64,000 bases of DNA from Sinohyriopsis cumingii (taxonomy: Eukaryota > Mollusca > Bivalvia > Unionida > Unionidae): contig CM068835.1 of NCBI GenBank assembly GCA_028554795.2, forward strand, positions 26,910,311-26,974,310, written 5' to 3'. Every line of letters starts with the position of its first letter. The first letter of the stretch is position 1. Made by a program: the position numbers and the translations under genes. The notes beneath the pieces are model-generated. The model had not been told where the DNA came from and made no database searches. It saw only the letters and a list, made by a program, of their open reading frames with translations. This document shows, one piece after another, positions 12,997 through 45,781 of the stretch.

Positions 12997-13036
12997 AGCC
13001 CTTTTCAGGGCTACCCCATACTCTAGAAAAGAAAAA
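12997..13036 (+). terminator. Histone-type 3' end, unit A1 (stem-loop plus purine-rich element)
   Basis: Stem-loop AGCCCTTTTCAGGGCT at 12997-13012 has a 6-bp stem and a TTTC loop, followed by ACCCCA and then CTCTAGAAAAGAAAA at about +10. This matches the metazoan histone mRNA stem-loop and U7-binding downstream element, with an A-T pair replacing the outer G-C. Confidence 0.75.
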
Positions 13037-13324
13037 ACAATCCATTTGCCAATGTGTGTATGTAGAGTAGTGTGAATATAAACACTAACTCTTTTTTATA
13101 GTGTGAGTGTATGTGTTTGTGTATATGATTGTGTGTTTGTAAGTGCTCACGTAAGTTTGTGTGGATAGTAGATTATGATAATGTTTCTTTGCTGTCTGAC
13201 GTGTGGGGAGAGTAGATTTGGGGTTTGATTGCTTTGAGTATGTGGATAGTATATTGAAGTGATTAATGAAAATTTTTAAATTAGTAATGGGTAGTATAAA
13301 AAAGTGAGTGAGTGTTTCTTTTAG
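13037..13324 (+). other. Spacer between units A1 and A2
   Basis: No gene. It contains a conserved TTTGCCAATG motif, then TATAAACACTAACTC facing GTGTGAGTGTAT as an imperfect inverted repeat, and GTGTGGATAGTA-type repeats. The same pieces follow unit A2 and recur in Polinton B. Confidence 0.5.
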
Positions 13325-13374
13325 GTCCGCGCGTTGTTTGGTCATGATCTAGTCCGCGCTTTCAGTATAAATTA
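13325..13374 (+). promoter_or_regulatory. Cassette promoter block, accessory unit A2
   Basis: GTCCGCGCGTTGTTTGGTCA and TGATCTAG are followed by AGTCCGCGCTTTCAG and TATAAA. The TTTGGTCATGATC element recurs before unit A3 and, slightly changed, inside Polinton B's right terminal repeat. The ATG follows about 55 bp later. Confidence 0.6.
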
Positions 13375-13424
13375 AAAATCGTTCGGCAGTCTAGCTACCT
13401 TGTTGATTGATCAACACCACCAGA

Positions 13425-13800
13425 ATGAACACCACACTAGCTAAACTACTTGAACTTCATGTACACCTGGAATATGCCAGGCGTATAGTGAATGAGCTGG
13501 CTGCAGAGGCCATCGTATAAGAGGGAAGGATGAAAGAGGAGGAGAGAAGAAACAAAGAAGAGGAGGAGAGAAGAAACAAAGAAGAGGAGGAGAGAAGAAA
13601 CAAAGAAGAGGAGGAGAGAAGAAACAAAGAAGAGGAGAGAGGAAATTTCAGAATCCCAGAGACAGAAAATTGGGATTATGAAGCCACTTATCCCACCTCT
13701 GCTCTCAACCAAAAAAGAGTGAAAAGAGACTGGGGAAGAAGATGTGTGTGTGGTGCCAGGCCTGGAAGGTGCCATCATCAACCAGGTGTCACTGGAGTTC
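13425..13800 (+). pseudogene. Accessory coiled-coil gene, unit A2 (HLEYA type)
   Basis: It opens with MNTTLAKLLELHVHLEYA, the same opening as unit B2 at 33453 (MNSRLTKLMNLKMHLEYA). It continues into a charged repeat coding for RRNKEEEE units and ends with a RRCVCGA-containing piece also found in B2. The product would be a long charged helix. No known family is recognised. It looks broken. Confidence 0.5.
13536..13640 (+). repeat. 24-bp tandem repeat inside unit A2
   Basis: About four and a half copies of a 24-bp purine-rich unit (AGGAGGAGAGAAGAAACAAA plus GAAG), nearly identical to each other. They encode an eight-residue charged helix repeat. The near identity suggests recent expansion. Confidence 0.8.
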
Positions 13801-13812
13801 AAAAAAACAAAC

Positions 13813-13851
13813 AGCCCTTTTCAGGGCTACCCCAATCTCTAGAAAAGAAAT
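13813..13851 (+). terminator. Histone-type 3' end, unit A2
   Basis: AGCCCTTTTCAGGGCT at 13813-13828, ACCCCA, then CTCTAGAAAAGAAA. It is almost the same as unit A1 over about 50 bp, including the TTTGCCAATG motif further down. Confidence 0.75.
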
Positions 13852-14125
13852 AGTAATCCATTTGCCAATGTGTGTAGGTAGAGTAGTGTGAATATAAACA
13901 CCGACTCTTTTTTCTAATTGCGAGTGTATGTATTAGTGTTTGTAAGTGATCAAGTAGGTTTGTGTGAATGGTAGATTATGGGGTTTTGTAAGCGCTCACG
14001 TACGTTTGTGTGGATAGTAGATTATGGATTTAGTTTTAATGATTTGTGTGTAAATAGTAGATTTGGGGTTTGTTTATTGCTGGTTCACGTATGTGGATAA
14101 TAGATAATATGAAATGAGAAAAGTT
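13852..14125 (+). other. Spacer between units A2 and A3
   Basis: No gene. It repeats the TATAAACACCGACTC hairpin-like piece and several GTGTGGATAGTAGATTATGG-type units seen after A1. Confidence 0.5.
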
Positions 14126-14231
14126 GGGGATGTTTTCCTATACGTCCGCGCGTTGTTTGGTCATGATCTAGGTAATATCAATTTTGTTTTAGGGGGATGT
14201 TTTCCATCATGTCCGCGCTTTCACTATAAGA
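14126..14231 (+). promoter_or_regulatory. Doubled cassette promoter block, accessory unit A3
   Basis: GGGGATGTTTTCC, CGTCCGCGCGTTGTTTGG and TCATGATC come first. A second GGGGATGTTTTCC, GTCCGCGCTTTCAC and TATAAG follow within 65 bp. The second copy has the TATA box and lies about 55 bp before the ATG. Confidence 0.6.
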
Positions 14232-14282
14232 ACCCACAAAGTTCGTCGTTCGCACCATTCTAAGGAATAAAAAAAAAAGAAG

Positions 14283-14863
14283 ATGGAAGTGTCCCACCTG
14301 TTTAATGATTTAAGGCATGTTTATTTTTGGATGGTGGATGGTGAATATGGAGTTGAAAGGATTGAAAGAGATTGGAGGTTAAGAACCAGTGTGCACTACG
14401 TGAACGAACTAAAATTAGCCAGGGAGATGATAAAATGATTAATTGAAGAAGAAGTGAAGAGATTGAGAGGGCTAATAAATCCCCCTTATGTCAGAGTGGG
14501 GACATTAAAAGAGGCCCTGGAGAAGGTAGAAGAAGTAAGAAGGTTTTTGGAAGAGATAGAAAAAGGTCAGAGTGGCCCTTTGTCAAAAGGAGTGTTGAAA
14601 GATTGAAAAAAGGGGAGGAAAAGATGAGAAAGGTGATAGATGAAGAAGTGGAGAAAATAAAGGACAGGTGGGCAAAAGATAGAAAAGAAGAAGAAAATAG
14701 AAAGAAAAAGGAAGAACTAGAGAAACTGAACGCTAACTGGATAAAAATCCAACAGAAGTTCGGAGCCATGGGTCACCCGGACTGGATACCGGAAAATGAA
14801 AAGAAGAAGAAGAAAGGAATGATGGAAAAAATAAGGGGATGGATAAAGAAGTGGACGAGTTAG
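14283..14863 (+). pseudogene. Accessory coiled-coil gene, unit A3 (outermost right gene)
   Basis: It starts MEVSHLFNDLRHVYFWM and continues with YVRVGTLKEALEKVEEVRR, a long Lys/Glu helix (ERRRK-type) and HPDWIPENEKKKK near the end. The Polinton B counterpart is at 44767-45360. The overall charge and helix content suggest a rod-like, possibly nuclear, protein; no family is recognised. It is transcribed toward the element's right end, and its 3' stem-loop opens the terminal repeat. It looks broken. Confidence 0.5.
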
Positions 14864-14884
14864 AAGAAGAAGAAGAAACCAAAA

Positions 14885-14922
14885 GGCCCTTTTCAGGGCC
14901 ACTCCAATTTCTCGAAAAGAGA
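14885..14922 (+). terminator. Histone-type 3' end, unit A3 (canonical sequence)
   Basis: GGCCCTTTTCAGGGCC at 14885-14900 is a perfect match to the metazoan histone stem-loop consensus, with AAAA before it and ACTCCA after it. CTCGAAAAGAGA follows at +10 to +22, in the position of the U7-binding element, and CAATTGCC comes later. Confidence 0.85.
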
Positions 14923-14957
14923 TCTACTTTCAATTGCCTACCCCCAAATTTTTATTT

Positions 14958-14966
<9 letters not shown>

Positions 14967-15007
<41 letters not shown>
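14967..15007 (+). repeat. (GT)n microsatellite
   Basis: About 20 uninterrupted GT units, preceded by a short TA run, at the inner part of Polinton A's terminal repeat. Confidence 0.95.
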
Positions 15008-15297
15008 GTCCCTAGACATTCCCACGATTTATTGCCCATGTTCAATTCCCCTTGACGCTAAACAGGCCCACGATTTATTCCCCATGTTCCATTTTCCCTT
15101 GACGCTCAACAGACCCACCCTGTTCAATTTCCCTTGACGCTCAACAGGCCCAAGATTATTTTTCCCATGTTAATTTCCCTTGACGCTATACAGGCCCACG
15201 ATTTTTCTCCATGTTAAATTTACATAGACGCTAAACAGGCCCAGGGTAGTTTTTAATGCTAATTCCCATTGACGCTGAATCGCCCCACTTAACTACT

Positions 15298-16402
15298 GGT
15301 GTAGACACAAATTAATGTTGCACGAACACCTGCAACCGTTCCTGTTCCTCCGTTCAGAGGTTACCCCTCTGGGATTTTAAGGGAGCAGAAAGAATTCCCT
15401 CAAACGCCTAAGGTTTTCACCTTGGTTTGAAACCCCCATTTTTATAACAACTCTCTTGAGATTCAAGTATGATCCATTCGATCACCGTTCGAAACGATTA
15501 CTAGACTAATACCTATTTGAGACCACAAACAATCAATGGGTCACATAGACCTGACTTCGGTTCGTTGTTATTTCTGAAATAATTATATATACTGTGTACA
15601 TCAAATTCTAAAACAGTGCATAATATGAAAATTTACAACTGGTTAGCGTGATCCTAATTACAATATGTGGCTTGCATACAACTGATGGGTGGGAATAACC
15701 CGACATTAGAAGACTATCCAGAATTTGGAGGTTAGTACATCTATGGCGTTTCAGAGAGGTTCTGCCAAAGTTTGGGAACCCTGGCTGGACATCTCATCCT
15801 TTTCCTAACCCAGACATGTAAACTAAGGAGCATGCGGTGCATGTTTTATGGCCCTTCCCATTCGACGAACAACTAGTTAGAATAGCAGGAGTATAAACTG
15901 GTGGAGTGGTGCCCGCTGCCCTTGAGTATAATAGTATGTTTGTTTGTAAGTAAGTATAGCATGATGTATAAACACTCCGACTCTTTTCGTTATAGAGGTC
16001 GGGTGTATTTGAATAGGAATTAACAAGCAGTTGCTGAATAGTGGGGGGGGGGGGGGTCGGATGGTAGGGATCTATGTTTGGATTGGAATCAAAAGTTGTA
16101 CTGGATGGTAGGAGTGTGTGCTGAATTCGAATGAAAAAAAGGCTGCTGGATATAGAAAAGAAATTTTAACATTGTCATTCTCGTTTGTCCCCAGATCGCA
16201 TCATCTGACCCTAAAATTCTAGGACATTATGGGGACAATAAAAATCTTATGTTAGATTCCTGTTTTTCCCCAGACTGTCTCTTCCTTTGTTAAATTGTCG
16301 TTTATCCCCAGACCGTCTTCCGCATGTAAACCTATAGGCTAAAGTTAATTCCAGTACGCCCTCAGATTCTCTCATGTAACTGTTGAAAGTATATTAAAAA
16401 GT
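15298..16402. other. Interval between the two Polintons
   Basis: No convincing gene. The part at 15955-16130 resembles the spacer of a Polinton accessory unit (TATAAACACTCCGACTC opposite GGTCGGGTGTAT, then GGATGGTAGG repeats). The part at 16170-16330 has three loose repeats around TTTATCCCCAGACCGTC. Both may be debris of an older, third Polinton. A G-run lies at about 16044-16056. Confidence 0.4.
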
Positions 16403-16408
16403 ATATAT

Positions 16409-16412
<4 letters not shown>
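16403..16412. repeat. Left target-site duplication of the split SINE
   Basis: ATATATTGGA here is repeated exactly at 46037-46046, on the other side of the SINE and the Polinton inside it. It marks the original SINE insertion. Confidence 0.75.
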
Positions 16413-16459
<47 letters not shown>

Positions 16460-16534
16460 TGTGTGTGTGTAATTTGGATTTTTAACGTAGCTTTAACAAT
16501 TTTTCAGTCACATCGCTATCATGTCTGTAGTATG
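16413..16534 (-). mobile_element. tRNA-derived SINE, 3' part, split by Polinton B
   Basis: On the minus strand this is the tail half of the SINE family found whole at 26434-26753, 58686-59008 and 62802-63159 (GTGACTGAAAAATTGTTAAA, then a (GT)n/(GA)n tail). The rest continues at 45788-46036 after Polinton B. The (GA)n run at 16411-16456 is part of the tail. Confidence 0.85.
16529..16534. repeat. Left 6-bp target duplication of Polinton B
   Basis: AGTATG here and ATTGTG at 45782-45787 both correspond to AGTGTG in the intact SINE at this position. Six bp is the length made by Polinton integrases. Confidence 0.75.
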
Positions 16535-16917
16535 AGTAGTGAAGGGGGACGATATAGCGACAATGGAAATTACATTACAGACACTCCTTGGGCCTGTATA
16601 GCGACAAGATTGATAGTGACAATGGGAATCATCATTACATACCCCCTTGGGCCTGTATAGCGACAATGGGAAAATACATTACAGGTAAGGTGACGTCACA
16701 GTACTGAATATTGGTAACAATGTAGCAAGGGGCTTACCTCAATCGGGACCAAAGAGAAGAAGAAAAAAAACTCGTTTTGGCGGGACATAGACATAGATAA
16801 CACACACAACAGACAACATACAAACACAAACAACTTTACAACCGACTAAAACAAATTTTAGGCAAAAAGGCAAATCGTTTTGAGGCATATCAGTGTCCCT
16901 GAAAATGGCCTTTGGGT
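16535..16917 (+). repeat. Left terminal inverted repeat of Polinton B
   Basis: Pairs as reverse complement with 45373-45781. Landmarks are AGTAGTGAAGGGGG at the tip, three tandem units with GGGCCTGTATAGCGACAA, then GGTGACGTCACAGTACTG and GTTTTGGCGGGACATAGACA. At the inner edge it holds the stem-loop of the outward-facing left gene. Confidence 0.88.
16876..16910 (-). terminator. Decayed histone-type 3' end of the left terminal gene
   Basis: Read on the minus strand: AACCCAAAGG, GGCCATTTTCAGGGAC as the former stem-loop (TTTTCAGGG loop side kept), then GCCTCAAAACGATTTGCC. It aligns base by base with the equivalent sequence at 45373-45415 in the other terminal repeat. Confidence 0.6.
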
Positions 16918-16922
16918 TTATG

Positions 16923-17168
16923 TTAACATCCTTTCGTTAACATAGAGGGCATCGCATAGGACTTCTTCTCTTCCTCAAACTTCTTCTGAATTCTGGTCCG
17001 TAGAGGAGAACTCTCTTTAAACAGCCTTGTCTCTCCACATAAACTTTTCTTTTCCAAACGCTCGTATCGGTGATCCGGATAATTGTACATGATGATCTGA
17101 CATACATGGGTAAGTCCGTACGGAACAGCATTGACGATACGAGAGTGGATGATTGTACGTTTGTCCAC
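16923..17168 (-). pseudogene. Left-terminal accessory gene of Polinton B
   Basis: A minus-strand frame of about 80 residues containing VNAVPYGLTHVCQIIMYNY, RYERLEKKSLCGETRLF and a charged C-terminus QKKFEEEKK. No family is recognised. A TATA box stands about 45 bp upstream, and a histone-like 3' element follows inside the terminal repeat. It is transcribed toward the left end of the element, mirroring the right-terminal gene. It may be slightly broken. Confidence 0.5.
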
Positions 17169-17212
17169 ATCTTGTGACGAGAACAGGTGAAGGGAATGAA
17201 CTGAACGGGGTT

Positions 17213-17348
17213 ATTTATAGTGGAAGAGCAGATCGAAACGGATTGAGCTTATTCACCAGTCCTAACACGTGTTACAAACTTCAGTCATAGTGTGGAGTCT
17301 GTCTTCCAATCCGAAGAGAGCTGACTGTGACGTCACATTCCCTATATA
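17213..17348. promoter_or_regulatory. Divergent promoter of the two left accessory genes
   Basis: A minus-strand TATAAAT at 17213-17219 and a plus-strand TATATA at 17343-17348 face outward, about 125 bp apart, each shortly upstream of an accessory ORF. The layout recalls divergent histone gene pairs. Confidence 0.5.
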
Positions 17349-17419
17349 GGTGCGCTAGCGTCTGTGCGCACTCAATCCATGCGACAGAGTTTTCAAACAT
17401 AACGAAAACTAAGACAACG

Positions 17420-17887
17420 ATGAATTGGGGTGCACCAGCCGTGGAGACGAGAGGCGATGGCATAGCAGATGCTACCAATGTCAACACAGGCCTACTTCCA
17501 GAAGAGGTCGATTTTATTTGGCATTTAGTCGATTTTCATTCTTCTTCACAAGAATTTGTTTCGGTACCATTCCCTTCGCCACATTCTCTTTCTTTACCAC
17601 ACGTCGAGGATTTTAAATAAAGACAGAAAGAAGAATTGGAGAATTTTTTGCAACAGCAGAAAGAAGCAGAACAAGCCTTCCTCCTTCAACAGCAACAGCA
17701 AAAAGAAGAGACAAGAAGAAGGAAACGACAAAAAGAAGAAGAAGCAGAGAAGAAACAAGGCCTAGGAGAGAAGGAGGACAGTGAAAGTCAAACGGTGACG
17801 GTACTCTTATACATTTTGGCAGAGTTAAGGACTCGGAAGCAAATGTATCACACTTCTTTAATGCGACCCAAGAGAAAAAGAGCTTAA
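17420..17887 (+). pseudogene. Accessory gene of Polinton B, left side (NWGAPAVETRG type)
   Basis: It begins MNWGAPAVETRGDGIADATN and GLLPEEVDFIWHLVDF, and continues with a Gln/Glu/Lys coiled-coil (LENFLQQQKEAEQAFLLQQQ) and a basic end MRPKRKRA that could be a nuclear signal. No family is recognised. It has its own TATA box and the best-flanked histone-type 3' end in Polinton B. It looks broken. Confidence 0.5.
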
Positions 17888-17955
17888 GGCAGTTAAAACT
17901 GAGTACGTCACGTTCCTGAGTTTTTTTTTTATAAAAAAACAAACAAATACCCAAC

Positions 17956-17994
17956 GGTCGTTTTCAAGACCACCCACTTCTCTCGAAAAAAGAT
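17956..17994 (+). terminator. Histone-type 3' end of the left accessory gene
   Basis: CCAAC, then GGTCGTTTTCAAGACC at 17956-17971, then ACCCACTTC and CTCTCGAAAAAAGAT. The flanks CCAAC and ACCCAC are exactly those of real histone mRNAs. One stem pair is mismatched. CAGTTGCCAAA follows as in the other units. Confidence 0.78.
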
Positions 17995-18149
17995 ATTATT
18001 TCAGTTGCCAAAATCAATTAAAACTCAAACTCTAAATCCCTTTTTACCCATGATGTACGTTTGTGCGTGAGTGTAGATTCTTATTCTGTGGGTTCTTATT
18101 CTGGTCCAAATTTTACAATTCAATATCACAACACACCACTTTAAAAAGT
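17995..18149. other. Gap between convergent left-end genes
   Basis: No gene is visible. The sequence is AT-rich with GTACGTTTGTGCGTGAGTGT-like spacer pieces. No stem-loop for the minus-strand zinc-knuckle gene was found here. Confidence 0.4.
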
Positions 18150-18670
18150 TCACAGACTTCTTCTGTGTCTCTTGTTCACTGTCTCTGTTTTTAATTTCTT
18201 CACTTTCACAGCTTTTTCCTCCTCTTCTGCCTCATTTTCTTCTCTTCTTCTTTTCTTCTCTTTTTTCTCTTTCTGAACGTGTCTGTGTTCTTCCTTTGGG
18301 GAGAGTACCTCTTCTTTCTGTTCGTAACCCCTCTCTTCCTCTTTCTCCTGTTGTTTCGTAAGCATTCTGAAGACCAATGTCCTTGCTCTTGACAATGGTA
18401 ACATGTATATTGATTTTTGTCTCTTCTGACACCTGTTTTACTTTTTGACGGTCTGGACACTCTAAAGACCAATGTCCTTTCTTCTTACAGATATAGCAAG
18501 TATCTTGACTTTTATCTCGAAATGAGGGGGAGTAGTCCGCCGGCTTATCTAAAGAAAACTTTCGTATGCAACCTCGCAAAGCTCTGATCAGAACTTCGAT
18601 CTGTGTAGGCTCTTCTATCGGTCTGGTCAGTTTGAGGGTGAAATGAATACTGGAAGGGAAGACACTAACT
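18150..18670 (-). pseudogene. CCHC zinc-knuckle gene, divergent from the polymerase, Polinton B
   Basis: On the minus strand the region encodes HFTLKLTRPIEEPTQIEVLI, then two zinc knuckles CYICKKKGHWSLEC and CYHCQEQGHWSSEC (C-x2-C-x4-H-x4-C), then a long Lys/Arg/Glu tail. Zinc knuckles bind single-stranded nucleic acid, so a role in replication or RNA binding is plausible. TATATAAAG lies just upstream. I do not know this as a standard Polinton gene. It looks broken. Confidence 0.6.
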
Positions 18671-18705
18671 CTTTATATATACACTGGTCTGACATGATAT
18701 AAAGG
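18671..18705. promoter_or_regulatory. Back-to-back TATA boxes between zinc-knuckle gene and polymerase
   Basis: A minus-strand TATATAAAG at 18671-18680 and a plus-strand ATATAAAGGG at about 18697-18706 are only about 20 bp apart. They probably serve the two divergent genes. Confidence 0.5.
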
Positions 18706-18799
18706 GACCCATTGCGTTTAAAATGTAGTCATTTGACCTTTTCAGTCAAGATAAAACGATCGCATCATGTCGTAGAGAAAGGAGAAGAAAGTAAGAGGC

Positions 18800-21700
18800 A
18801 GATCGTGATTTGTCGCCTCGTACAGTAGCTGAAGTTTTGGCACAAATTCATGCCAGTGATTTTGATGATGACATGAGTGAGCCAGAATTCAGACCCAGAG
18901 ATTCTACACCCAAACAAAGTTCACCACCATTAGTAAACCCTGAAAAAAAACTACCACATTCGAGAGACGTAAAAGCGCTCCTCTAGAACATTTAGAACCA
19001 CGGCTTACACGTACACAATGAAGTTTAAAGATTTCAAGTCCAAAGAACCGCTAGAGAAAGCAAAAGGGTTCATCACCGAGGTGTTGGATTTTTTTGTTAA
19101 CAACACTGAAACGGCAATGTCAAGCCAAAGAAGACGACCACTTGAGACTCTCCATTCATCAAGACATTTGAATTCCCCCGTTTAGATCGAGTTTAGCAGT
19201 CCGTCAGAAACTGTTACCTTTCAAAGTGATCGACAGGATTCAACACATGCAACAATAATCCAACGACAAGTGTCACATCACCTTTGGAAAAGCCACACCA
19301 TTCATGACCCAAGTTTCTCTTCCCCAAGGGACCGGACAAAGCAGAAAGGTGTTGCTGGTGGTCAACCTTCGTAGCATCAAGCGTAGCTTTGTTCAAATTA
19401 ACAATCCTCAAGACCAGATGTGTTTAGCTCGTGCCATTGTGGTGGGACGAACGTATGACGACAAGAACGACACGTTATAATGGAAAGAAGCCTGAAAAAC
19501 AATTCAAAAATCGAACCAAGCCTAACAACGAAGAGAATCAGAACTCTGTTACAGCAAGCTGGCCTGTCCAAAGACACACCCTGTGGCATTCCTGAAATGC
19601 AAATATTACAAGACGTACTGGCTCCACGCTACACCTTGAAAGTACACACTCAAGAAGTGCGCGGATCTCTATTGTTTCGAGGCAAAGACTTCAAAGACGG
19701 AAAATACATCCACGTCTATCATCACGATGAACATTTCGATGCCATCACCAGTATCACCGCATTCTTGGGATACAGTTATTACTGTGAGAAATGTGACTAT
19801 GGCTATAACAGTCGAGAGAAAAACAAGCTTTGTGGATCGAAATGCTCAGGATTTTTGGCCTCTCAACCCTGACTGGACAAAGGACAAGAACAAGTGCATT
19901 GCCCTGCTTGTCAGCGCACTTTTGTTAGCCCTACCTGTTACCAACAACATCAAAAGACGCAAGGTTCACAGCAGAAACGTGCTCGTCAACTCCTGAGATT
20001 GTGTTCTACTTGTGGATAAGTCATACGTACCAACAATGCCAAAGGCACACGTAGGTTCAGTGAATAAACGATATCACATTTGTCACCAAATCGTGGACTT
20101 GGGACACGAATGCTATATTCAAAAATACCATTCCAAACAAGAGGAGGAAGATAACAAAAAGAAAGGCAATTTCATCTTTTTAAATTTCGAATGCATGCAA
20201 GAGATCGACATTCACATTCCTAATTTCTGCTTCGACCACCGAGCGTGAGAGAAGTGCATAGAAGATCTTATCTTTAGTCATTGCCCTCACTTAAGCAAGA
20301 TTCATGGAGGACTCTTTCGGCGACCGAACACGCTGGCCGATTTCGCCCAATGTATCTTAGACCCCATCGACGAGACGTGGAGCCAAGAGAACTTCGAGTG
20401 TTACGGAGATTGTCATCGCCATGCCACGGTAATGGCTCACAATTTCTCGGGATACGGTGTACTATTTCTTTTGAGATATAATACGGAACAAAGTACCTAA
20501 CATCCGAAAGTAACTTTGAACGAAGCCAAAATCATTTCCATGCAAGTGGGTCAAGTACAGTTTAAAGATTCGATGAGTTACTTGGCAATGTCATTGAGTC
20601 GAATGCCTAAAACATTTAGAATGACAGAAATGGTCAAAGGCTATTTTCCGCACCTTTTTAATAACGAAGCTAATCAACACGCCATTCTACCTCATTTGCC
20701 TGAGGCTCACTACTACGACCCCGGCAACATGCGTACCGAACAAAGGGAAGCTTTCTACGCTTGGTACCAGGCTCACGCTTCGGACCCCCTCGACTTTCAG
20801 CAAGAAACGTTAAAGTATTGTCGTTCTGACGTGGACATTTTACAGCGTTGTTGTGGAAAAGATCGAGAACTGTTCATGGAACACGGAGGGAACGATCCTT
20901 TGAAAGAAGACTGCACCTTTGCCAAAGCGTATTCCTTAGTATACCGTCAAAGATTCATGCCCGAAAACACCCTGTCTGTCATCTGACCTCAAACGACCAA
21001 CTTTGTCAAACGTTAATACTCGGTCAAAGCCCAACTCTGGCTACATTACTTGTGCGACAAGGAAGACAAATGGATTTAACATGCCCGAAATGGAGGAGGC
21101 AAAAATACCATCGGACCGAATTCGGTGGATGGCTAAGACTTAGAAAACCTCAAGATCGTGTACGATTTTAACGGATGCTTATTTCACGGATCTCCCCTCT
21201 GCTACTCTCATCGTGGCACTCAAAATCAGTTTTTACAACGGACCATGGAAGACTTGTACAAGATTACTTGTCAGCGGAGTTTGAAATTGTTGCTTTCCTG
21301 CAGGGCATCCGCAATTGCTGAAGGCACAGATCGACCTGGACTACATTCGACAATACGAAGGATTGATCAAGTACAAAGTCTTGCCTCCCACGAACTTGTA
21401 CCATGCCACTTTACCTCACAATTGCAAAGGAAAACTGATGTTTCCCTTGTGCCATACTTGTGCCGAAACGTGCAACCAAGACCAGCCTTGCCAGCACACT
21501 CAGGAAGAACGCGCCTTGACGAGAATGTGGGTCAGCATGGAATTGTTTAAAGCTCTGGACCAGGGATACCAAATGTTAGATGTGTACGACATTTGCCACT
21601 TTCCCAAGACAGAACAATATCACAGGGGCGACGAGACTCTGAAAGGTATTTTCGCAGACTACGTGGATGCTTCTTTGAAACTGAAACAAGAAGCCAGCGA

Positions 21701-22540
21701 CTATCCTTCATGGTGCCACACTCCCGAAGACCAAATGAAATTCAAAGAGAAATACTGGGAGCAGGTAGGCATCACTTTAGACCACATCGAGAAAAACGAA
21801 GGAAGGCGATCGTTTGCCAAAGTGATGCTAAATTGCTTGTGGGGTAAAATAGCACAACGACCGTGTTTACCCAAGACAGAGTATTTGACAGAACCTTCCC
21901 GCTACTTCCAGACCATTCACGACAAAACCAAATACATGAAACGCGTGGACGTCGTTTCTGAGGATTTCGTCTTAGTCAATTACGAAAAATAACTGGACTT
22001 TGTAAAAGCCGACGAATTTGGAAATGTCATCATTGCGGCCTAGGTGAAAGCCCATGCTCGCGTAAAATTGTACGAAGCTTTAGAACTGTTAGGCGATCGC
22101 GTCCTGTACATTGACACGGACAGTTTCATCTACATCAATCGCCTGGGTCAACGTCACCCTGACATCGAAGGAGACGGTTTAGGAGCCTGGACAGACGAAC
22201 ACCCCAACGGCAAGATTCTAAGTTTTTACGAATACGGGGACCCACAAGGAGACGTGCACACGGAGTGTGAAGTGAAAGGATTGACTCTCAATTATCGTAC
22301 CAGTCAGTGGTGAACTTTAGTGTGCTGCAAGAAGCTTTGCAGTCTTGACAGGATGGAAACTTTAAAGTGACCACCTACGAACCGCACGAGATTGTACGTT
22401 TACCCACTCACCAAATTGTCAGTCGGCCTTTGGAAAAGAGTGTATCAAATCGTGTACTAGAAGCGAGTGTGGTTACCAACCACTTCACCTTTTCGTACGG
22501 ACACATCAGTATTGGCCAGCATATAAAAAAGGACAACGTC
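18800..22540 (+). pseudogene. Protein-primed family B DNA polymerase, Polinton B
   Basis: The full gene region. An N-terminal part carries VNLRSIKRSFVQINNPQDQ, then a Cys cluster (YYCEKCDYGYNSREKNK, LCGSKC), an exonuclease-like middle with YCRSDVDILQRCC, and a palm with KVMLNCLWG, DTDS and EVKGLTLNY. It corresponds to the gene truncated by the window edge in Polinton A. It is heavily broken. Confidence 0.88.
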
Positions 22541-22584
22541 CAAGACCGACAGATCATTGCCACTACCAAGACCAAGCGAGAAAG

Positions 22585-23162: not shown

Positions 23163-23220
23163 TCTGCGAATTGTCACTACCTACTTTTAGTGGGACCTAG
23201 TCATTCAAGTGGCATACCAT

Positions 23221-23600: not shown

Positions 23601-23601
23601 A

Positions 23602-24010: not shown

Positions 24011-24044
24011 TACTTCCGACAAAAGAGGGTTTAAACGGGTTAAC

Positions 24045-25855: not shown

Positions 25856-26842
25856 TTGAAACCTAGAGGTAGCAGTTCCCTAGGAGGTGTCATCATTCGC
25901 TCCCTCTTAAAATGCGATCCTAATGACCCAAAGGTTCTCCCCAAGAAAAAAGTGACTCCCAGAAAAGCCCAACGAACAAGACCAGGTGGCAACCACAGAA
26001 AAAGAAAACCCCACAGAAAGAAAAAGAAAAGTCCCCAAGAAAGAAAACCCCCATCAAACAGCTTGTATCCGCAAGAGAGACACTTCGGTCAGGACGCAAT
26101 CGTATATTCGCAAACCACGACCTGCAGCGGCGGCAACCGCGTCTCCTGCAGCCTCAGGTTCTTCCACTTTTCCGTTGTTGGTGATGCCTGCCAAACTCAA
26201 TTTGACACCCGTTCTTCCTCATTTGATGAAACAATAGAAATATGCGTCTCCAAAACTTCTCCTCCAGCGGTGACACCCTCCTCCTCTTTAGCTGGAGTGG
26301 CAGTTGCTCACAAAGTACCTGGTCTCAAAATCAAAGTCTAAGAGTGATCGGGCATGTTACAGAATTTACTGAATTTGTCCAAGTAAGAACGGTCCCGATA
26401 TAGCCCGTTGCGAACCCCTCGACGACGCGTGATACGCGTGTGTGCTTTGGGTTTTTAACGTAGCTTTAACAAGTTTTCAGTCATATCGCTAGGATGACTG
26501 CAGTGTGACAGTTTATAGTGATGTCTAGCACTGGGGCATCATTCCGCAGACATGTATCACGATGTCCCACCCAGCCACATTATCCTGACACCAAGCCAAG
26601 CAGTCCTAACAACTAACATCTTAATGCTGAGCGCCAAGCGAGGCAGCTGTTAGTACCATTTCTGTAAGTCTTTGGTATGACTTGGCCGGAAATTGAACCC
26701 ACGACCTCCCGCATCCGAGGCAGAAGCTCTAACCACTAGGCCACCGGAGCGGTACGATGCGTGATGCCTGTCATCAAGTTGATACGACGTAAAACAATCA
26801 GTGGCGACGCTTTCCAGTATAAAAAGGGTCTGAGGCAAAGAA
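25856..26842 (+). pseudogene. Basic Lys-rich / Ser-Pro-rich region, Polinton B, split by a SINE
   Basis: Counterpart of 5124-5853: MKPRGSSSLGGVIIRSLL-like opening, basic runs and Ser-Pro segments. A minus-strand SINE at 26434-26753 is inserted near its end. It looks broken. Confidence 0.4.
26434..26753 (-). mobile_element. tRNA-derived SINE inserted in Polinton B
   Basis: 320 bp on the minus strand. The head has a tRNA-like A box (GGCCTAGTGGTTAGAGC) and B box (GTTCAATTCC); the tail reads CTGAAAACTTGTTAAAGC. It is flanked by a 12-bp duplication, ACGACGCGTGAT at 26422-26433 and ACGATGCGTGAT at 26754-26765, with one mismatch. It inserted after Polinton B. Confidence 0.88.
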
Positions 26843-32710: not shown

Positions 32711-32745
32711 AGTCTAACCATCCACTGTTGACTCATACTCCTATG

Positions 32746-33069
32746 AAGATGTGCTCAAGACTAACCAAGCTGAACCTGATACCTAAGCCTGAAGAGATAG
32801 ATAATGTCAAAATGTTGAAAGTGACTGAAGGCCTGATAGAAGAGCTATTCAGAGAGGAAATCAAGAAAGAAAAGGAAGAATGGACGAAGAAGTACAGACT
32901 TCAGAAGCAGAGAGAGCACAGAGAACAGCAGCAACAGCAGCAGGAACCGGATAGAGGTTTTGTCGACTGTCGTTTAGACACCAAAGAGTTCTCCTTCTCT
33001 TTCCGAAGAAGCAGACCCTATCCTGTGGGAAAGCCTGTCACCAGAGTGGGACGAAATCTTAGACAATAA
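32746..33069 (+). CDS. Accessory coiled-coil gene, unit B1
   Basis: An open frame of 107 residues: MCSRLTKLNLIPKPEEIDNV, then VTEGLIEELFREEIKKEKEE, a Gln-rich run, and DRGFVDCRLDTKEFSFSFRR. It is the counterpart of unit A1. It is strongly helical and charged, with a basic C-terminus. No family is recognised. An AATAAA overlaps the stop codon, possibly by chance, and a histone-like stem-loop follows 32 nt later. Confidence 0.6.
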   Translation, partial: KMCSRLTKLNLIPKPEEIDNVKMLKVTEGLIEELFREEIKKEKEEWTKKYRLQKQREHREQQQQQQEPDRGFVDCRLDTKEFSFSFRRSRPYPVGKPVTRVGRNLRQ

Positions 33070-33100
33070 AAGATTGCCATAACTCATCGTCCATAAAAAC

Positions 33101-33137
33101 AGCCCTTTTCAGGGCTACACAATACTTACGAAAAGAC
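33101..33137 (+). terminator. Histone-type 3' end, unit B1
   Basis: AGCCCTTTTCAGGGCT at 33101-33116 with AAAAAC before it, ACACAATA after it, then TTACGAAAAGACA and CAATTGCCAATGG. Same block as A1 and A2. Confidence 0.75.
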
Positions 33138-33304
33138 ATACTAACTCAATTGCCAATGGTATGTTAGTAAGTTAAAAAATTAATGTGTGGCTATAAGCAC
33201 TTCGTTTGTTTGACTTTGTTAGAAGTGTGTCCATAAGCACTTCGTTTCCGGAGCTTGTCAAAACTTAATCTGTATGCAATTGTGTTTGAATGAGTGTTTT
33301 TTTT
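33138..33304 (+). other. Spacer between units B1 and B2
   Basis: No gene. It has two copies of a 24-bp piece around ATAAGCACTTCGTTT (at about 33193 and 33233). Confidence 0.5.
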
Positions 33305-33394
33305 AGTCCGCGCCTTTTGGGGGTGATGATATGGGTCTTGTACGTTTTGGTGTCATGGGTGTTTTCCTTCACGTCCGTGCTTGAAAAATATAAA
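33305..33394 (+). promoter_or_regulatory. Cassette promoter block, accessory unit B2
   Basis: AGTCCGCGCCTTTTGG, then GGGTGTTTTCC, TTCACGTCCGTGCTTGAAA and ATATAAAG. It is equivalent to the doubled blocks of A2 and A3. Confidence 0.6.
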
Positions 33395-33452: not shown

Positions 33453-33990
33453 ATGAACAGCAGACTGACAAAACTGATGAATCTCAAGATGCACCTGGAA
33501 TATGCCATGAGACTCTTAGATGAGATGGTCATGGAGGCAGTCCAGGAAAGGGCTAGGATAGAAGAAGACGAGGAAAAGAAGAAGAAAGAAGAGGGGAAGG
33601 AAAAGAAAGAAATTATCCTGCAGAACTTGATGATAAGACAGAGCTGTGAAATTAAGCCCATGGTGATGACACCTCCACAGGCAGCACCAGCACCACAGCC
33701 ACGTCAACCACAGCTTCAACATCTCCCACCAGTGCAAAGGACCATGATCCCACAGACGGAAAACTGGGAGGAGGAGTTGCGAGAGCAACCACGAGAACCA
33801 TAGCATCCACGGGTCTGGCACAGCAGAAGACGGAGGGAAGTCCTTCAACTTCCCGTAGACTGAAACTTGGGATGATGAAGCCACACAAGATGCCTCCGCA
33901 CTCCCAGCAGCTACAGTCAATTGGGACAATGACTGGAGCCGCCGCTGTGTCTGTGGTGCCGACCTGGAAGGTGTCACCATTAACCAGGTG
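33453..33990 (+). pseudogene. Accessory coiled-coil gene, unit B2 (HLEYA type)
   Basis: It opens MNSRLTKLMNLKMHLEYAMR and continues with a Glu/Lys helix (EEDEEKKKKEEGKEKKE), a Pro/Gln-rich stretch and, near the end, RRCVCGA as in unit A2. A2 and B2 differ mainly in the charged repeat. Function is unknown. The later part looks broken. Confidence 0.55.
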
Positions 33991-34014
33991 CATCTGGAGT
34001 TTTTTTTTTAAAAC

Positions 34015-34053
34015 AGCCCTTCTCAGGGCTACCAATATCTCTTAAAAAAAGAC
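34015..34053 (+). terminator. Histone-type 3' end, unit B2
   Basis: AGCCCTTCTCAGGGCT at 34015-34030 (TTCTC-type loop, allowed in the histone consensus), ACCAATA, then CTCTTAAAAAAAGACT and CAAGTTACCAAT. Confidence 0.72.
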
Positions 34054-34129
34054 TATTCAAGTTACCAATTTCAGTGAGTGTGGAGCAGTGTCATTATGAA
34101 CACTCACTCCTTTACTGATGTGATTGTGT

Positions 34130-34660: not shown

Positions 34661-34680
34661 GTCAAAGCGTTTGTCATTAA

Positions 34681-39640: not shown

Positions 39641-39699
39641 TTTGGCCCTATAATTTACTACCTTAATTAATTATAACAACAGAAATGGATATAACTAGG

Positions 39700-42600
39700 A
39701 AAAGGAATATAGTAATCTGGCAATGGAATGGCGGGGGCTTACATATTAATAAGCCAGAATTAATGATCTAACTTCAACAATCTAAAATTAAACCTGATTT
39801 GATTATCTTTTTAAGAAATACTTATCCATCATAAAACTAAAAATATTCCAAAAATCCCAGGTTATTCAGCCAGCAACTTCACTATGAGAAATAATGAGCA
39901 AAGAGGGGGTGGTCTAGCCATCTTTGTCAGTGACTCACTCCCAAATATATCATTTCAACAACACCCTTTAGCCGTGTAGCCACAAACGATCCCAGTAATC
40001 CCACACCCCTTGAGTATCAGTAGTAGGCAGATTTATTTTAAAAAATTTATTTATGACTCGGGCAAACCTAATGCCATCTCCCCCCACCCCCTCAGCTATG
40101 CCCAACTGATCAGCACAACAAATGAATACATGATATGCGGTGACTTCAACGCACATAGCAAAAGATGGGGAGGAAAGCATCAAAACAAGAGAGGCAACCT
40201 AATCGAAAAATATATCACCAACAATACTCTAGTCATATTTAATGATGCTAATAAAACCAGAATTTCACCAGAGGATGGATCACTATCTGCAATTGACCTA
40301 ACAATTTGCACACCCAGAATAGCATCTATATCTAACTGGGGAGTAGATAGAGATTCCACGTCGGGCAGTGACCATTTCCCCATAAATATTGCCATTAATT
40401 TTACCAATCCTGTTGCCACTTCCTCCAAAGTCTCCAAGTGGAGACTGGACAAAGCCAACTGGCATTCATTCAATCCCTTGCTCGCCGGAATGACTATAGC
40501 CAGCCTGCGGAACGACGACATTAACAAATACAACAACAAAAAACCTTGAAGCGATCAATGCAGCCGCAATCCCATGGTGGAACGATGACTGCAAACATAT
40601 AATCAAGGGGAAAAAACCCTCAATAAATTTCGCCATACCATACAGGTCTTTCAACTGATTATACAAACTATAAAATAAAAGTAAAACAAGCAAAGAATAT
40701 CATTAAAAAAGCAAAGGAAAAATCTTGGAAAAATATTGCTCCACCCTGGAAGTTAACCAATGCAACTCAAAACATGTTTGGAATATACTAAAAGCAATGC
40801 GAGGATCAAATAGTATAAGTATTCCAAACATCAAGGGTGCAATAACTGATAAAGATAAAGCAGAACATCTAGCAATACACTTCGCTGGAATGAGCAAAAA
40901 TGACAATCATCCAGCCAAATTCCAAGCACACAGAAAAACAATAGAGTACACATAGCCATACCTATTTACTGGCCTAGATCAAAGGATTTCTCCCTTAAAC
41001 GAACTATTTAGCCTGGACGAATGGAAATCAGTACTTTGAAACAAGAAATCAATCTCCCCAGAAGAAGATAACCTAGGATACGAAATATATAAGAAAATAC
41101 CACCCAGTATGGAAGAAATCATACAGATTTGGTTAATCAGTCATGGAAGACAGGACAAATTCCCCACAAATGGAAATAGGCTATAGTTATCCCGATCCCT
41201 AAAGATGGTAAGGACCCCACAGAAATATCCTCATACAGATCGATCTCCCTTACTGATACCATATGGAAGGTGATGGAGATGATGATAAGCAACAGACTCA
41301 GATATCACCTTGAAAGTAACAATCTTCTCACAAAACCAAAGTGGCTTCCGCAATAAAAGATCCACCCTAGATCAACTACTTTGGCTCGAGTCTTGCATCA
41401 AACAAGCTTTTAATGCTAAAAGAAAGCGCGATAGACACCTCATAGATATTTTCTTAGACCTTGAGAAACCCTTCGATTTAGTGTGGATTGATGGTCTCAT
41501 AGCCAAAGTGAACCATTATGGAATCAATGGCAACATGCATAAATGGATTGAAACCTTTTTCAAAGATAGACACATCACAACCAGAATAGGAGCGCATTAT
41601 TCAGAAGAATATGTGCTAGAGAATGGCACCACACAAGGAAGCGTCCATAGTCTGACCCTATTTAACATCATGAGAATTGATCTAGAATGCTGTCGACCTC
41701 AGCAAAATAGACCTATCGCAATTTGCTGAGGACAGCACGTATGGAAAGCGGGCAACCCACGCATACAACAGCTATCAACAGAACTACAAGTCAGCCTAAC
41801 TAACATCGGCAAATGGGCCGACAAATGGGGGTTCAAACTATCAAAAAGAAAAACAACGGGAATACTATTCACCCACCCCATAAAAGATACAATAGAGAGC
41901 CGCCAACCCTATATATTCAAGGCGAACCAATCAAATTTGAAGAGTGGCAAAAATTGTAGGCATGTACGACGACCAACATCTCACATGGAACTATCACATC
42001 ACCGAATTAATACGGAAATGTAGCGGAGACCTTAATCTTCTGAAAAACATAAAAGGTTTACAATGGGGTGCAGACCAAGATTCATTGGTAACACTTCACA
42101 GGGCCTTAATTAGATTCAAACTGGATTATGGATGCCAGATCTATGCATCTGCCAAACCATCAATACTCAAACGTCTTGACATAATCCAAGCAAGAGCTTT
42201 ACGTATATGCACAGACACACTCCGAAATACCACTAAAGAAGAACTACAAATCATAACAGGCGAAACATCTTTAACACTAAGGAGAGAAGAATTGACATTA
42301 AGATATGCAGCCAGAATGTCCATACAAAATCTGAACCACCCAACAAAGAACATCATTAACAAATGCAACATCCCATTTAGCCAGAGAGTCGTCCCCTTAC
42401 CACCATCTGGGAAAATGGTCCATACATTATGTAAAGAACTACAACTCGTCTGCCTTCGTACAGAAATAATACGATATCCAGACCCTGCTCCATGGTCATG
42501 GAAAAAACCAATTATCAACACCCTAACAACAACCTTCGGATCCAAAGTAAAACAGCATTTGGAAATAAGATCAAAGATCCTCACTATATTAGACAACTCT

Positions 42601-43644
42601 TACAAAGACTTTGTCAAAATATACACAGACGGGTCCAAATCAAATAACCCAGACAAAACTGCTGAAGCACTCACTATCCCGGAACTGAACAACGAAATAG
42701 GAAGCCGACTCCCGAATAAATGCTCAATATACACAGCAGAATTATGGGTTATATTCGAAGCAGTAAAGATAGCATATCAACAGAAAATTCAGAAGATACT
42801 AATAGTAAGCGACTCACTTAGTGTACTTAAAAAACTAGAAATAGTCAACTCAAAGGGGCGTGAAAACCTCCTTAAAGAAACCTACTTGCTAATTAACAGC
42901 ATGGAAAAACAATGCCAAATTGTAGAATTCATGTGGGTTCCATCACATATAAACATCCCAGGCAACGAGAAGGCCGATCAAGCAGCAAAGAACGCACTGA
43001 GCGAACTTGAATCAGCCCACATCGATTACAGCGTCCCAGAATTGTACAGCATGATAACCAAAAAAAATTGTCTCTAAATGGCAAGCACAATGGGATACAT
43101 GCCTCAAAGGACGTACGCTGTATTCGATTAAAAAAAAAACAGTGAGTCGCAATACCAAAGCACCGAAAACCAATATCAAGCATCATCAACGGATCATTAA
43201 CCGAATCAGTACAGGTAAAACCAGTGGCATCACTAGGGTTGGTGTCACCCAGTGCGGTAACTCATGATGTCACCCCCATGGACCTCCTTCCTGCACAAAA
43301 ATTCTAAATTTTTATAGACAGTCATGTACAGTAACTCATGGTGTCACCCCCATGGAATACTTCCTGCACAAAAGTCGAAAATTTTATAGACAGTCATTTG
43401 GGTGTCACCCCCTCTGATGGTGTCACCCGGTGCGGTCCGCACCCCCCGCACCCACCCCCCAGTGACGCCACTGGGTAAAACCTTGCTTGCAAGCAGTATG
43501 GGGAAATATGTCCTGGCTAACTGGGGATTTGGAGCAAATTGCCCCAACTGCGTTGATGATGAAGACCTCTGGCATGTTTTCAATATATGTCCGAAATATG
43601 ACGAACAAAGGAAAAATATTGGTCAATACACAAAAGAAAATTAA
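39700..43644 (+). pseudogene. LINE ORF2: APE endonuclease, reverse transcriptase, RNase H
   Basis: The endonuclease end is clear at 40130-40400 (CGDFNAHSKRWG, SAIDLTI, SGSDHFPI). The reverse transcriptase shows SGFRNKRSTLDQLLWLE, FLDLEKPFDLVW and NGTTQGSVHSLT at 41330-41680; the catalytic pair reads FAEDS near 41721 where FADDS is expected. The frame 41944-43077 carries the thumb and RNase H with YTDGSK, TAELWV, SDSLSVL and WVPSHINIPGNEKADQA. A Cys/His end (CPNC...HVFNICPKY) follows the MITE. Stops and frameshifts are spread along the gene. Confidence 0.88.
43222..43473. mobile_element. hAT-type MITE inside the LINE
   Basis: 252 bp, starting CAGTGGCATCACT and ending AGTGACGCCACTG, with an exact 8-bp duplication GGTAAAAC at 43214-43221 and 43474-43481. 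CAGTGGC termini plus 8-bp duplication fit hAT. Inside, a unit with GGTGTCACCCCCATGG is repeated. It has no coding capacity. Confidence 0.85.
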
Positions 43645-44760
43645 TTCGTCATATACCTACCCTGAACTTCTTTATCAAACCAATCCAAGCCCCAATCAAA
43701 CAATTGATGCCATGTTAATCTTCCTTAAGGAAATTGACAAAATCGCTAAAAATATTAGCCAACCAAATCCATATACTCAGACCGACCGGACACCTAGGGC
43801 GATTACATAAGTAATATAGCTTAAGGCACAGTTTTAGAAATAGGACAAATTAATAAATATCCATAAAACATTAGATTGAACATTAACTGACATCCCTTTT
43901 AGTGCGGCTGGGCGGGAAATTGGGTGCGGGAGTAGCACACGGTTTACAGCCCGAATACGGGCGAGTACCGCCAGTGCGCGGGATGATGCAACACTCGCAC
44001 CTATCACCCACTTCGGCGCCCTGAGCTGTCCAAATGTATAATCTATTAAGCAATTCAACAAGTGGTCGGTAATTAGGAAACCATCATTCATACTAACATA
44101 TAACTTCTATCATTACTTACGAAATGATGAATCCACATAAAATATACTAATTATAACTAGCCAACAAAATTAAAAATTATAAGGTGGCCATCAGGGCCCG
44201 CTGCACAATGCGGCAACAAATTGACTCAAACTAACTAGAAAACTAGAGTAACAACCCAAAATTAGATCTATAAGGTGGCTAAAATCCAAAGCCATGAGGA
44301 CCAGCCACATAAGTTGGCACCAAATTATATAATTAGAAAATATGTCCTTAAAATATTGATCTATAAGGTGACTAAAAACACAGTCATCAGGCACCCCGCA
44401 CAAGGCGGAAACAGTTATTTTTAGAAAAGAAACACCAAATATTATTCGATTAAATAATTGTTTCCCTTAAATAGATTAGGAGATTCATCCTGCCATCTAT
44501 GTCTATATATTTTCTACAAACAGCACAAATGATTTTCCAAATTATAAATACGGCAAACGATGCCATTTACTATTCGGAAATTGGGGACAAAAATCGATAC
44601 CGGATGTAAGGCGCACCCCTTCCACTGAGCCCGATCTTCCTTTGCCGCCTCCAGACATGTACCATCTAGGTGAGTGCGTGTGGACCATTCCCACTCACCA
44701 CTAGTCCCGTGAGACATAACTGTCTCGAAACCGGACCAATCAAATACCACTTCTTAAGTG
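43645..44760 (+). other. 3' region of the LINE
   Basis: Non-coding. It shares the CACCTATCACCCACTTCGG area and the repeated GGTGGC/CCATCAGG-CC units (three copies at 44180-44415) with the truncated insertion at 30843-32710. Confidence 0.6.
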
Positions 44761-44766
44761 CATTAA

Positions 44767-45360
44767 TACGTTGGGGAGTGGCACCATCAATAGAGTTGTT
44801 GAACCAACTGAATGACAGTTGGTACTGGATCAGAGATGCAGCCTATGTGGTGGAAAGGCTTGAGAAGGAATGGAAGTATCCAGGTAAACTACACTTTGTG
44901 ACTAGCCTGCAAGTAGCCAGGGATCCGGTACAATGTATGATAGAGGAGGAAGTAGAAAAGTTAAGAGGTTTCATTCAACCTCTATATGTGAGAGTGGGAA
45001 CCTTGAAGGAGGCACTTGATGGTGTCATCAAAGTCAGGTGTTTTCTAGAAGTCACATTGCATTGGACAGAGTGGTCATTTGTGAAGCTGGGGGCTAGACC
45101 AACTAAAGAAAGGAGAAGAAATGATGAGAAAAGTGCTAGAAAAAGAGGTGAAGAAGATGAAAGATAAGTGGGATAAAGAAAGAAAGACAAATGAAACAGA
45201 AAGAAAAAGGAGGAGTTTGAAAGACTGGATGAAAGTTGGATCAAGATACAGGAAAAATTTAGATTGATGAGACATCCTGACTGGATTCCAGAGACGGAAA
45301 AGTAGAAGAAAGATATTGCTGAGAAAGTTAGAAGTTGGTTGAAGAACTGGAGAAAATAGA
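44767..45360 (+). pseudogene. Accessory coiled-coil gene, unit B3 (outermost right gene)
   Basis: Counterpart of unit A3: ELLNQLNDSWYWIRDAAYVV, EEEVEKLRGFIQPLYVRVGT and a Lys/Glu-rich end with HPDWIPETEK. It is transcribed toward the right end of Polinton B. It looks broken, and is separated from its promoter by the LINE. Confidence 0.5.
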
Positions 45361-45372
45361 AGAAGAAGAAGA

Positions 45373-45781
45373 ACCCAAAGACCCTTGTCAGGGCTACTCA
45401 TATGCCTCAAAAAGATTTGCTTTTATGCCTATTTTGTTTTAGTCGGTTGTATAGTTGTTTGTGTTTTATGCTGTCTGTTGTATGTGTTATCTATGCCTCT
45501 GTCCCGCCAAAACGTTCTAGGGTTTTTTCCCGCTCTTTGGTCATGATTGAGGACAGCTCCTTGCTACAGTGTTACCAAAACACAGTACTGTGACGTCACC
45601 TTACCTGTAATGTAATTTCCCATCATCGCTATAAATCTTGCCGCTATATAGGCCCAAGGGGGGTCTGTAATGATATTTCCCATTGTCGCTATAAATCTTG
45701 TCGCTATACAGGTCCAAGGGGGGGGGGGGGTCTGTAATGTGTTTTCCATTGTAGATGTATCGCCCCCCCCCCTTCACTACT
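45373..45781 (+). repeat. Right terminal inverted repeat of Polinton B
   Basis: Reverse complement of 16535-16917: CTATGCCTCTGTCCCGCCAA, CAGTACTGTGACGTCACC, three TTGTCGCTATACAGG-type units, and the tip CCCCCTTCACTACT. A CGCTCTTTGGTCATGATTG piece resembles the accessory promoters. Confidence 0.88.
45380..45415 (+). terminator. Decayed histone-type 3' end, unit B3
   Basis: GACCCTTGTCAGGGCT at 45380-45395, ACTCATA, then GCCTCAAAAAGATTTGC. It sits at the inner edge of the terminal repeat, at the same place as the canonical stem-loop of unit A3. Confidence 0.6.

Follow-up and report, generated by a model that had tools for sequence, protein, structure and literature searches.

Two described systems come closest to the locus reported here. 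Replication-dependent histone genes of metazoans, whose 3′ ends are modelled by the Rfam family RF00032, are compact TATA genes with a stem-loop, an AC-type flank and a GAAAAG element at a short distance behind the stop codon; to our knowledge, tail-less mRNAs in metazoans are almost exclusively the products of such genes. Polintons, Mavericks and adintoviruses carry a B-family DNA polymerase (PolB), a chromodomain integrase, a packaging ATPase, terminal inverted repeats and accessory genes beside the core, and we know of no member with histone-type 3′ ends or histone promoter boxes. Features of both systems occur together in a 64,000-nucleotide (nt) stretch of the bivalve Sinohyriopsis cumingii (assembly GCA_028554795.2, contig CM068835.1, positions 26,910,311–26,974,310; the whole stretch is called the window below), which contains two Polintons with five small accessory genes, A–E. 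Among the matches listed in the open-licence literature on Polintons, adintoviruses, transposons, viruses and the histone stem-loop, there was no earlier report of such a combination. Bracoviruses carry histone H4. A paper that covers the adomavirus Histoid mentions histone-like proteins in other viruses and does not contain the term stem-loop (PMC11071296). Such cases resemble the present one in linking a virus-like element to histones, but virus-borne histone genes encode histones or histone-like proteins, whereas in these Polintons only the regulation appears histone-like.

The Polinton lineage very probably expresses its five small non-histone genes through the replication-dependent histone gene pathway of the host. 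The signals of A–E match those of host histone genes closely in letters, order and spacing, except for the spacing of the H2B box. Given this match at both gene ends, the simplest account is that the Polinton genes would be transcribed (A–C) and matured (A–E) as histone-type mRNAs. It is also likely that promoter box and 3′ end together put non-histone genes of a virus-like element under complete host histone-gene control, with the S-phase programme making and destroying tail-less mRNAs.

To describe the 3′ ends, we ran RF00032 on both strands of the window (gathering score 34; E values for a search with 4227 families; matches included to E 10). Six sites are significant (26.8–37.8 bits, E 1.8e-7 to 2.4e-3), and all of them are accessory 3′ ends, in sense, on the plus strand and outside the cores. 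In Polinton 1, gene A, whose first open piece spans 12616–12819 and which has an in-frame stop, ends at 12992–13037 (stem-loop 12997–13012, purine element 13026–13032; 26.8 bits, E 2.4e-3). The broken gene B (13425–13812, with the gene end not determined) is followed by a match at 13808–13854 (stem-loop 13813–13828; 30.8 bits). Gene C (14283–14863; open pieces 14283–14438 and 14624–14863) ends at 14880–14925 (stem-loop 14885–14900) with 37.8 bits: this is the one site of the eight in the window that lies over the gathering score. In Polinton 2, gene D (17420–17887), broken here and open in other copies (about 182–195 residues), is followed by a match at 17951–17996 (28.1 bits). Gene A is an open reading frame (ORF) of 108 residues (32743–33069) with its match at 33096–33142 (32.0 bits), 31 nt past the stop, and gene B has an open piece (33453–33803) with the stem-loop about 210 nt further downstream (match 34010–34054, 31.4 bits). 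All of these genes lie on the plus strand.

Two further 3′ ends belong to the outermost genes of Polinton 2. Gene C, broken and on the plus strand (44745–45359), is followed by a match of 17.3 bits (45375–45419, plus strand, E 8.5), which the alignment of the terminal repeats also places at the inner edge of the right repeat. Gene E is an open ORF of 77 residues on the minus strand (16937–17170), divergent from D, and its 3′ end (16851–16916, minus strand; stem-loop 16910–16895) is recognizable from its letters and from well-kept copies elsewhere in the genome; it was absent from the RF00032 listing to E 10. A first-pass annotation of the window, made from the letters alone, had proposed eight histone-type 3′ ends over two Polintons, and had called two of them, at 16895 (minus strand) and 45380, decayed. 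Both claims stand, with six of the eight sites significant, one weak and one unlisted, and its coordinates are correct, 16895 being the low end of the minus-strand site. What has to be corrected is the setting of the decayed pair, which opens both terminal inverted repeats of Polinton 2.

The general layout is histone-type: a stem of 6 bp, a loop of 4 nt whose first and third positions are T, and AC directly behind the stem. Departures occur in the loops at 34015 and 45380 and in the stems at 17956 (one mismatch), 45380 and 16895, and pair 1 is A-U in four window copies versus G-C in the consensus. The first-pass annotation had given every site a TTTC-type loop and a GAAAAGA element. The TTTC loop is present at six of the eight sites, with TCTC at 34015 and TGTC at 45380; GAAAAGA is present at four, the others having GAAAAAAGA at 17956, AAAAAAAGA at 34015, AAAAAGA at 45380 and AAAACGA at 16895. 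Within the listing to E 10, RF00032 matched neither of the Polinton cores and none of the host sequence of the window. The loosest letter pattern we used gave ten matches in the window, namely the six well-kept sites together with 3587 and 24417 (plus strand, in the cores) and 31441 and 27457 (minus strand), and none of these four extra sites is an RF00032 match. A stricter letter pattern matched nowhere in the cores (24.2 kb), the host sequence (18.0 kb) or the insertion (9.6 kb).

The same module recurs across the genome. Searching 2.90 Gb in 1138 contigs with RF00032 yielded 589,472 first-look candidates, of which 75 were scored; all 75 lie over the cut-off, so the genome holds at least 75 matches, on many contigs, the best among those scored reaching 45.6 bits. 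Host histone stem-loops score over the cut-off yet are not among the 75, and the match list is therefore neither complete nor unbiased. Of these 75 matches, 48 were examined as loci. Coding matches to A–E were found in 47 of the 48 loci, core histones (H2A, H2B, H3, H4) in none; in the remaining locus (L041), a C-type promoter precedes the stem-loop. The covariance-model check proposed with the first-pass annotation thus gives matches both in the window and in Polinton copies genome-wide. Because each locus had been selected by a stem-loop, we also counted gene ends that had played no part in the selection: here a stem-loop was present in 19 of 22 copies of D, 6 of 7 of A, 12 of 13 of B, 5 of 11 of E and 0 of 1 of C, a total of 42 of 54. 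Gene B counts, for these ends and for promoter boxes, use query B2; query B1 was one base out of frame and nevertheless matched conserved DNA, and one locus (L001) is classed by B1 alone. The fetched loci hold 94 modules, 47 at the selecting place and 47 elsewhere (one of the latter, L004 on the minus strand, being spurious), and 11 further stem-loop-like matches without a purine element. Two of the loci, L039 and L040, are near-identical. In three others (L013, L016 and L048), a stretch of 4 kb includes a second set of accessory genes or more than one stem-loop, so that these loci may represent Polintons that are nested or lie side by side.

Comparison with the histone genes of the host, as the first-pass annotation had advised, revealed the same stem and the same GAAAAG element at the ends of H2A, H2B, H3 and H4 as in most Polinton modules. 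The H4 and H3 genes end in GGCCCT-TTTT-AGGGCC followed by CTAGAAAAGA, H2B in GGCCCT-TTTC-AGGGCC followed by CTAGAAAAGA, and H2A in GGCCCT-TTTA-AGGGCC followed by CCGAAAAGG; further downstream, H2A has CAATTTTGCC, close to the CAATTGCCAA of the first-pass annotation. Host histone ends score 35.9–39.4 bits with RF00032, inside the range of the Polinton copies (31.0–43.8 bits). The distance from stop codon to stem-loop is 27 nt in H4, 28 in H3, 34 in H2B and 35 in H2A. In Polinton hits without an internal stop, window copies included, it is 19–27 nt for D (21 of 27), 18–24 for E (23 of 33), 23–36 for A (5 of 7) and 18–24 for C (7 of 12). The genomic setting differs: histone genes encode histones and lie mostly in tandem repeats of about 8.3 kb, whereas the Polinton genes encode unrelated proteins in dispersed mobile elements. 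None of 150 scored histone matches overlaps any of the 75 stem-loop matches.

Between unlike accessory genes, the stem-loop and the purine element remain similar, and the identity of the surrounding sequence is mostly close to background. This does not hold for A and B of Polinton 1, which have about 100 nt in common downstream, for the pair of B copies or for the pair of terminal-repeat copies. For the stem itself we aligned the 8 window rows with 44 of the 46 unselected modules that are sound and with 2 further ones whose purine element is weak. Across 50 distinct rows, 96.3% of stem cells are paired; pair 1 is A-U in 23, G-C in 20, G-U in 3 and unpaired in 4, and in one row pair 3 shows a second double change. 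The A-U form of pair 1 is found mostly in A and B, the G-C form in C, D and E. None of 500 shuffles reached the covariation score, and none the percentage paired. The hexamer AATAAA lies within 100 nt after the stem-loop in 9 of 95 modules, at about the random rate (8.4% of random windows). The first-pass annotation had placed AATAAA of core genes at 3985 and 12392, and the letters agree; on the plus strand, core AATAAA also occurs at 20063 and 24261.

The 5′ ends add a feature that is new beyond the first-pass annotation: the promoter boxes of B and C, and of A in the window, match host histone boxes. The octamer GTCCGCGC occurs six times in the window, whereas 0.15 occurrences are expected from a set of 40 order-1 Markov sequences. 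All six lie upstream of accessory genes, and in A, B and C of the window a box stands 6–8 nt before a TATA-like box. Gene A has its box at 12543–12550, 6 nt before the TATA-like TTTAAG. Gene B of Polinton 1 has a proximal box at 13352–13359, 6 nt before TATAAA, and a distal box within 13315–13335, a run of 21 nt identical to the host H4 promoter. Gene C has a distal box at 14144–14151 and a proximal one at 14211–14218, which lies 6 nt before TATAAG and is like the host H2B box. In Polinton 2, gene B has a distal box at 33306–33313 and, at 33373–33380, a proximal GTCCGTGC variant 8 nt before a TATA-like stretch. All of these boxes are on the plus strand.

Elsewhere in the genome, all 10 copies of B and all 7 copies of C with enough upstream sequence have the box (with the C2 query, 7 of 8 for C), and a second box about 67 nt upstream is frequent. 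Within the Polinton loci there are 58 occurrences of GTCCGCG, and those in L027, L033, L036, L039, L040 and L042 are not at accessory promoters. The host H4 promoter is identical in 29 of 29 copies, with TATAA 8 nt past the box, and 21 nt of it recur exactly in the distal box of eight Polinton copies, including that at 13315–13335. From the host H2B promoter, 24 nt recur exactly in the proximal box of ten loci, versus 12–13 nt in five shuffled controls; host H2A has a related box in opposite orientation. In the host histone promoters (L049–L078 and L082) the box reads ATGTTTTCCATNACGTCCGC in H2B, reversed in H2A, and AGGTCCGCGC in H4, and is in itself a candidate element of host histone genes. 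We rejected an E2F-like interpretation of the box, as its letters misfit the E2F consensus. GGTCCG, presumably the site of the mammalian H4 factor HiNF-P, fits the box, although a literature search for the site gave nothing useful, and HiNF-P is a candidate reader of the box. HiNF-P binds H4-specific elements and recruits NPAT (PMC5706932).

The proteins themselves are not histones, as had been stated from the letters: Pfam searches with eight A–E queries gave no family over its cut-off and no histone family. In a database of 5.8 billion proteins, gene A has ten relatives (62–76% identical) and gene E two (75–77% identical); A and E are thus protein families that extend beyond this window. No relatives of PolB, gene A or the exact stem-loop pattern were obtained as DNA from viral contigs (for gene A, also from genome contigs), so that conservation outside this genome rests on proteins only. 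Gene E is under purifying selection, with a median dN/dS of 0.12 over 24 open ORFs selected by us as open (216 of 276 pairs kept at dS > 0.05; median dS 1.02). For gene C a single pair gave 0.23, and A and D gave no value. AlphaFold models the gene A protein as a single long helix (mean pLDDT 66.8).

The two Polinton cores, whose matching blocks are 82–89% identical, encode by Pfam a PolB (DNA_pol_B_2, 89.7 bits, a viral or organellar type of B-family polymerase), two ORFs with BIR domains, an A32-type packaging ATPase (Pox_A32, 22.8 bits, exactly at its cut-off) and an integrase ORF with a chromodomain over its cut-off and an rve match of 16.9 bits, under its cut-off of 32.6. The candidate capsid and protease ORFs gave no Pfam match and are named from gene order. 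The BIR domains, of the inhibitor-of-apoptosis type, are in two adjoining ORFs at 1606–2741 (51.8 and 82.4 bits), and in Polinton 2 the stretch from gene D to PolB contains an ORF with a zinc knuckle (zf-CCHC; 18232–18579, minus strand).

Polinton 2 is bounded by terminal inverted repeats of 384 bp (left, 16535–16918) and 410 bp (right, 45372–45781), identical in 334 of 415 aligned columns (80%), and the 5′ flank of the stem-loop is where their similarity begins. The outermost genes of the element are E (left) and C (right), which face outward and end at the inner edge of these repeats. The element sits in a short interspersed element (SINE), uninterrupted copies of which lie at about 26.4, 58.7 and 62.8 kb. 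SINE-like copies were found at 16457–16534, 26433–26750, 45793–46036, 58686–59010 and 62807–63129, one being the insertion target. Where a 6-bp target-site duplication would be expected, the flanks of Polinton 2, AGTATG and ATTGTG, differ, and by eye each is one change away from the AGTGTG of the 58-kb copy. Also by eye, insertions separate gene A (about 30.85–32.7 kb) and gene C (about 34.7–44.7 kb) of Polinton 2 from promoter remnants, that of C being likely at about 34645, some 10 kb away. By their translations, ORFs at 36.9–43.9 kb, inside the stretch that splits gene C, resemble those of non-LTR (long terminal repeat) retroelements. The string GTGACGTCAC, which we take to be CRE-like, was seen by eye at about 16691, 45595 and 17326, that is, in both terminal repeats and in the D promoter. 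A tandem array of a 41-bp unit occupies 57144–58240.

In the mechanism that we propose, A, B and C start at TATA promoters with GTCCGCGC boxes, as in host H2B and H4, and these boxes would recruit the host histone transcription machinery around S phase. All five genes end in a histone stem-loop and a host-type purine element; the stem-loop binding protein (SLBP) would bind the former and the U7 small nuclear ribonucleoprotein (snRNP) would pair with GAAAAG in the latter. The transcript would be cleaved a few bases past the stem-loop, and the resulting mRNA, without a poly(A) tail, would be translated and destroyed on the histone schedule. Core genes would stay outside this route. The first-pass annotation had already read the 3′ ends as marks of the histone pathway, a reading that gains sequence-level support from genome-wide recurrence, from a host-like stem and purine element, from the stop-to-stem-loop distance and from the promoter boxes of B and C (and of A in the window). 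What we observe is that the signals are there, that they recur, that they are identical with those of host histone genes and that E is under selection; from the sequence we infer the tail-less mRNA, its SLBP and U7 processing and its coupling to S phase.

Several findings weigh against this mechanism. Five of the six well-kept window copies score under the RF00032 gathering score, and 1 of 14 prokaryote controls rang with the model, below the cut-off. An Rfam search for the host U7 gave nothing over threshold: the best candidate has 29.3 bits (E 0.27), a limit at which 12 of 14 prokaryote controls also ring, and by eye its 5′ part pairs poorly with GAAAAG. Of 11 unselected copies of gene E, 6 have no stem-loop at the gene end. 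Seven of 95 modules contain AATAAA within the 60 nt that precede the stem-loop, and the hexamer also occurs at 33065 in gene A of Polinton 2. Since the forms of pair 1 follow gene families, the covariation comes down mostly to one A-U/G-C difference and to few events; of 500 shuffles, 5 had as many pairs with changes on both sides, and 487 as many pair types. The A and B modules of Polinton 1 are not independent, given their common downstream sequence. At the promoters, TATA follows the host H2B box at about 29 nt, versus 6–8 nt in the Polinton genes, and no long strings are common to Polintons and the host H3 and H2A promoters (15 and 14 nt). The gene A box is known from the window only, no fetched copy of A having upstream room, and no box was found upstream of D (0 of 22 copies) or E (0 of 32).

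The last point bears on a first alternative, namely that the histone machinery processes the 3′ ends without any tie to S phase. The gain would then lie elsewhere, for example in having tail-less mRNAs in germ cells or the early embryo, or in evading control that is linked to poly(A). Because D and E have a histone 3′ end without the box, the 3′ end is the common denominator of the five genes and the more general part of the system. The H2B and H4 boxes beside TATA in B and C (and in A in the window) would, however, be hard to explain without histone-type transcription, and we consider this alternative improbable. A second alternative is fossil capture: an ancestral element acquired histone flanks a single time, and the signals, inherited ever since, no longer have a function. 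The copies are indeed related by descent, several window genes are broken, and the exact 21–24-nt strings in common with host histone promoters suggest capture. Persistence by descent leaves unexplained that the module stays between unlike genes while most flanks diverge, that pair 1 changes on both sides together, that protein E is under purifying selection and that the post-stop spacing is narrow in most open copies; we consider fossil capture very improbable.

The stem-loop could also be a DNA-level element of the terminal repeats, serving integration, replication or packaging, as its position at the inner edge of both repeats of Polinton 2 might indicate. Yet in A, B and D the stem-loop is internal to the element, has the sense orientation and follows the gene closely, and neither the purine element nor the promoter boxes have a place in such a scheme; a terminal-repeat element is unlikely to be its only role, and we give the scheme as a whole scarcely any credence. 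A last alternative identifies the sites with histone genes or pseudogenes of the host, or with hairpins that arose by chance. In its favour, one window site alone passes the gathering score, but its probability is negligible: histone genes and pseudogenes are refuted by 0 of 48 loci with core histones, by ORFs without a Pfam histone and by host histone matches that lie elsewhere, mostly in tandem arrays, and chance hairpins are ruled out by E values down to 1.8e-7, by stem covariation and by stem-loops at gene ends free of selection.

The expression of A–E through the host histone pathway remains the reading that we prefer, and the signals suggest that these genes are switched on and off with host DNA replication. 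If this is true, five non-histone gene families on the tail-less route would break the rule that this route is almost only for histones. Messenger RNAs of A–E are predicted to be missing from poly(A)-selected RNA-seq, which may explain why they have been overlooked. Dozens of dispersed copies form a natural set for asking which histone signals suffice. For the Polintons themselves, the histone programme would time viral or transposon genes in a manner that is, as far as we know, undescribed, and would couple a virus-like element directly to the DNA replication of its host.

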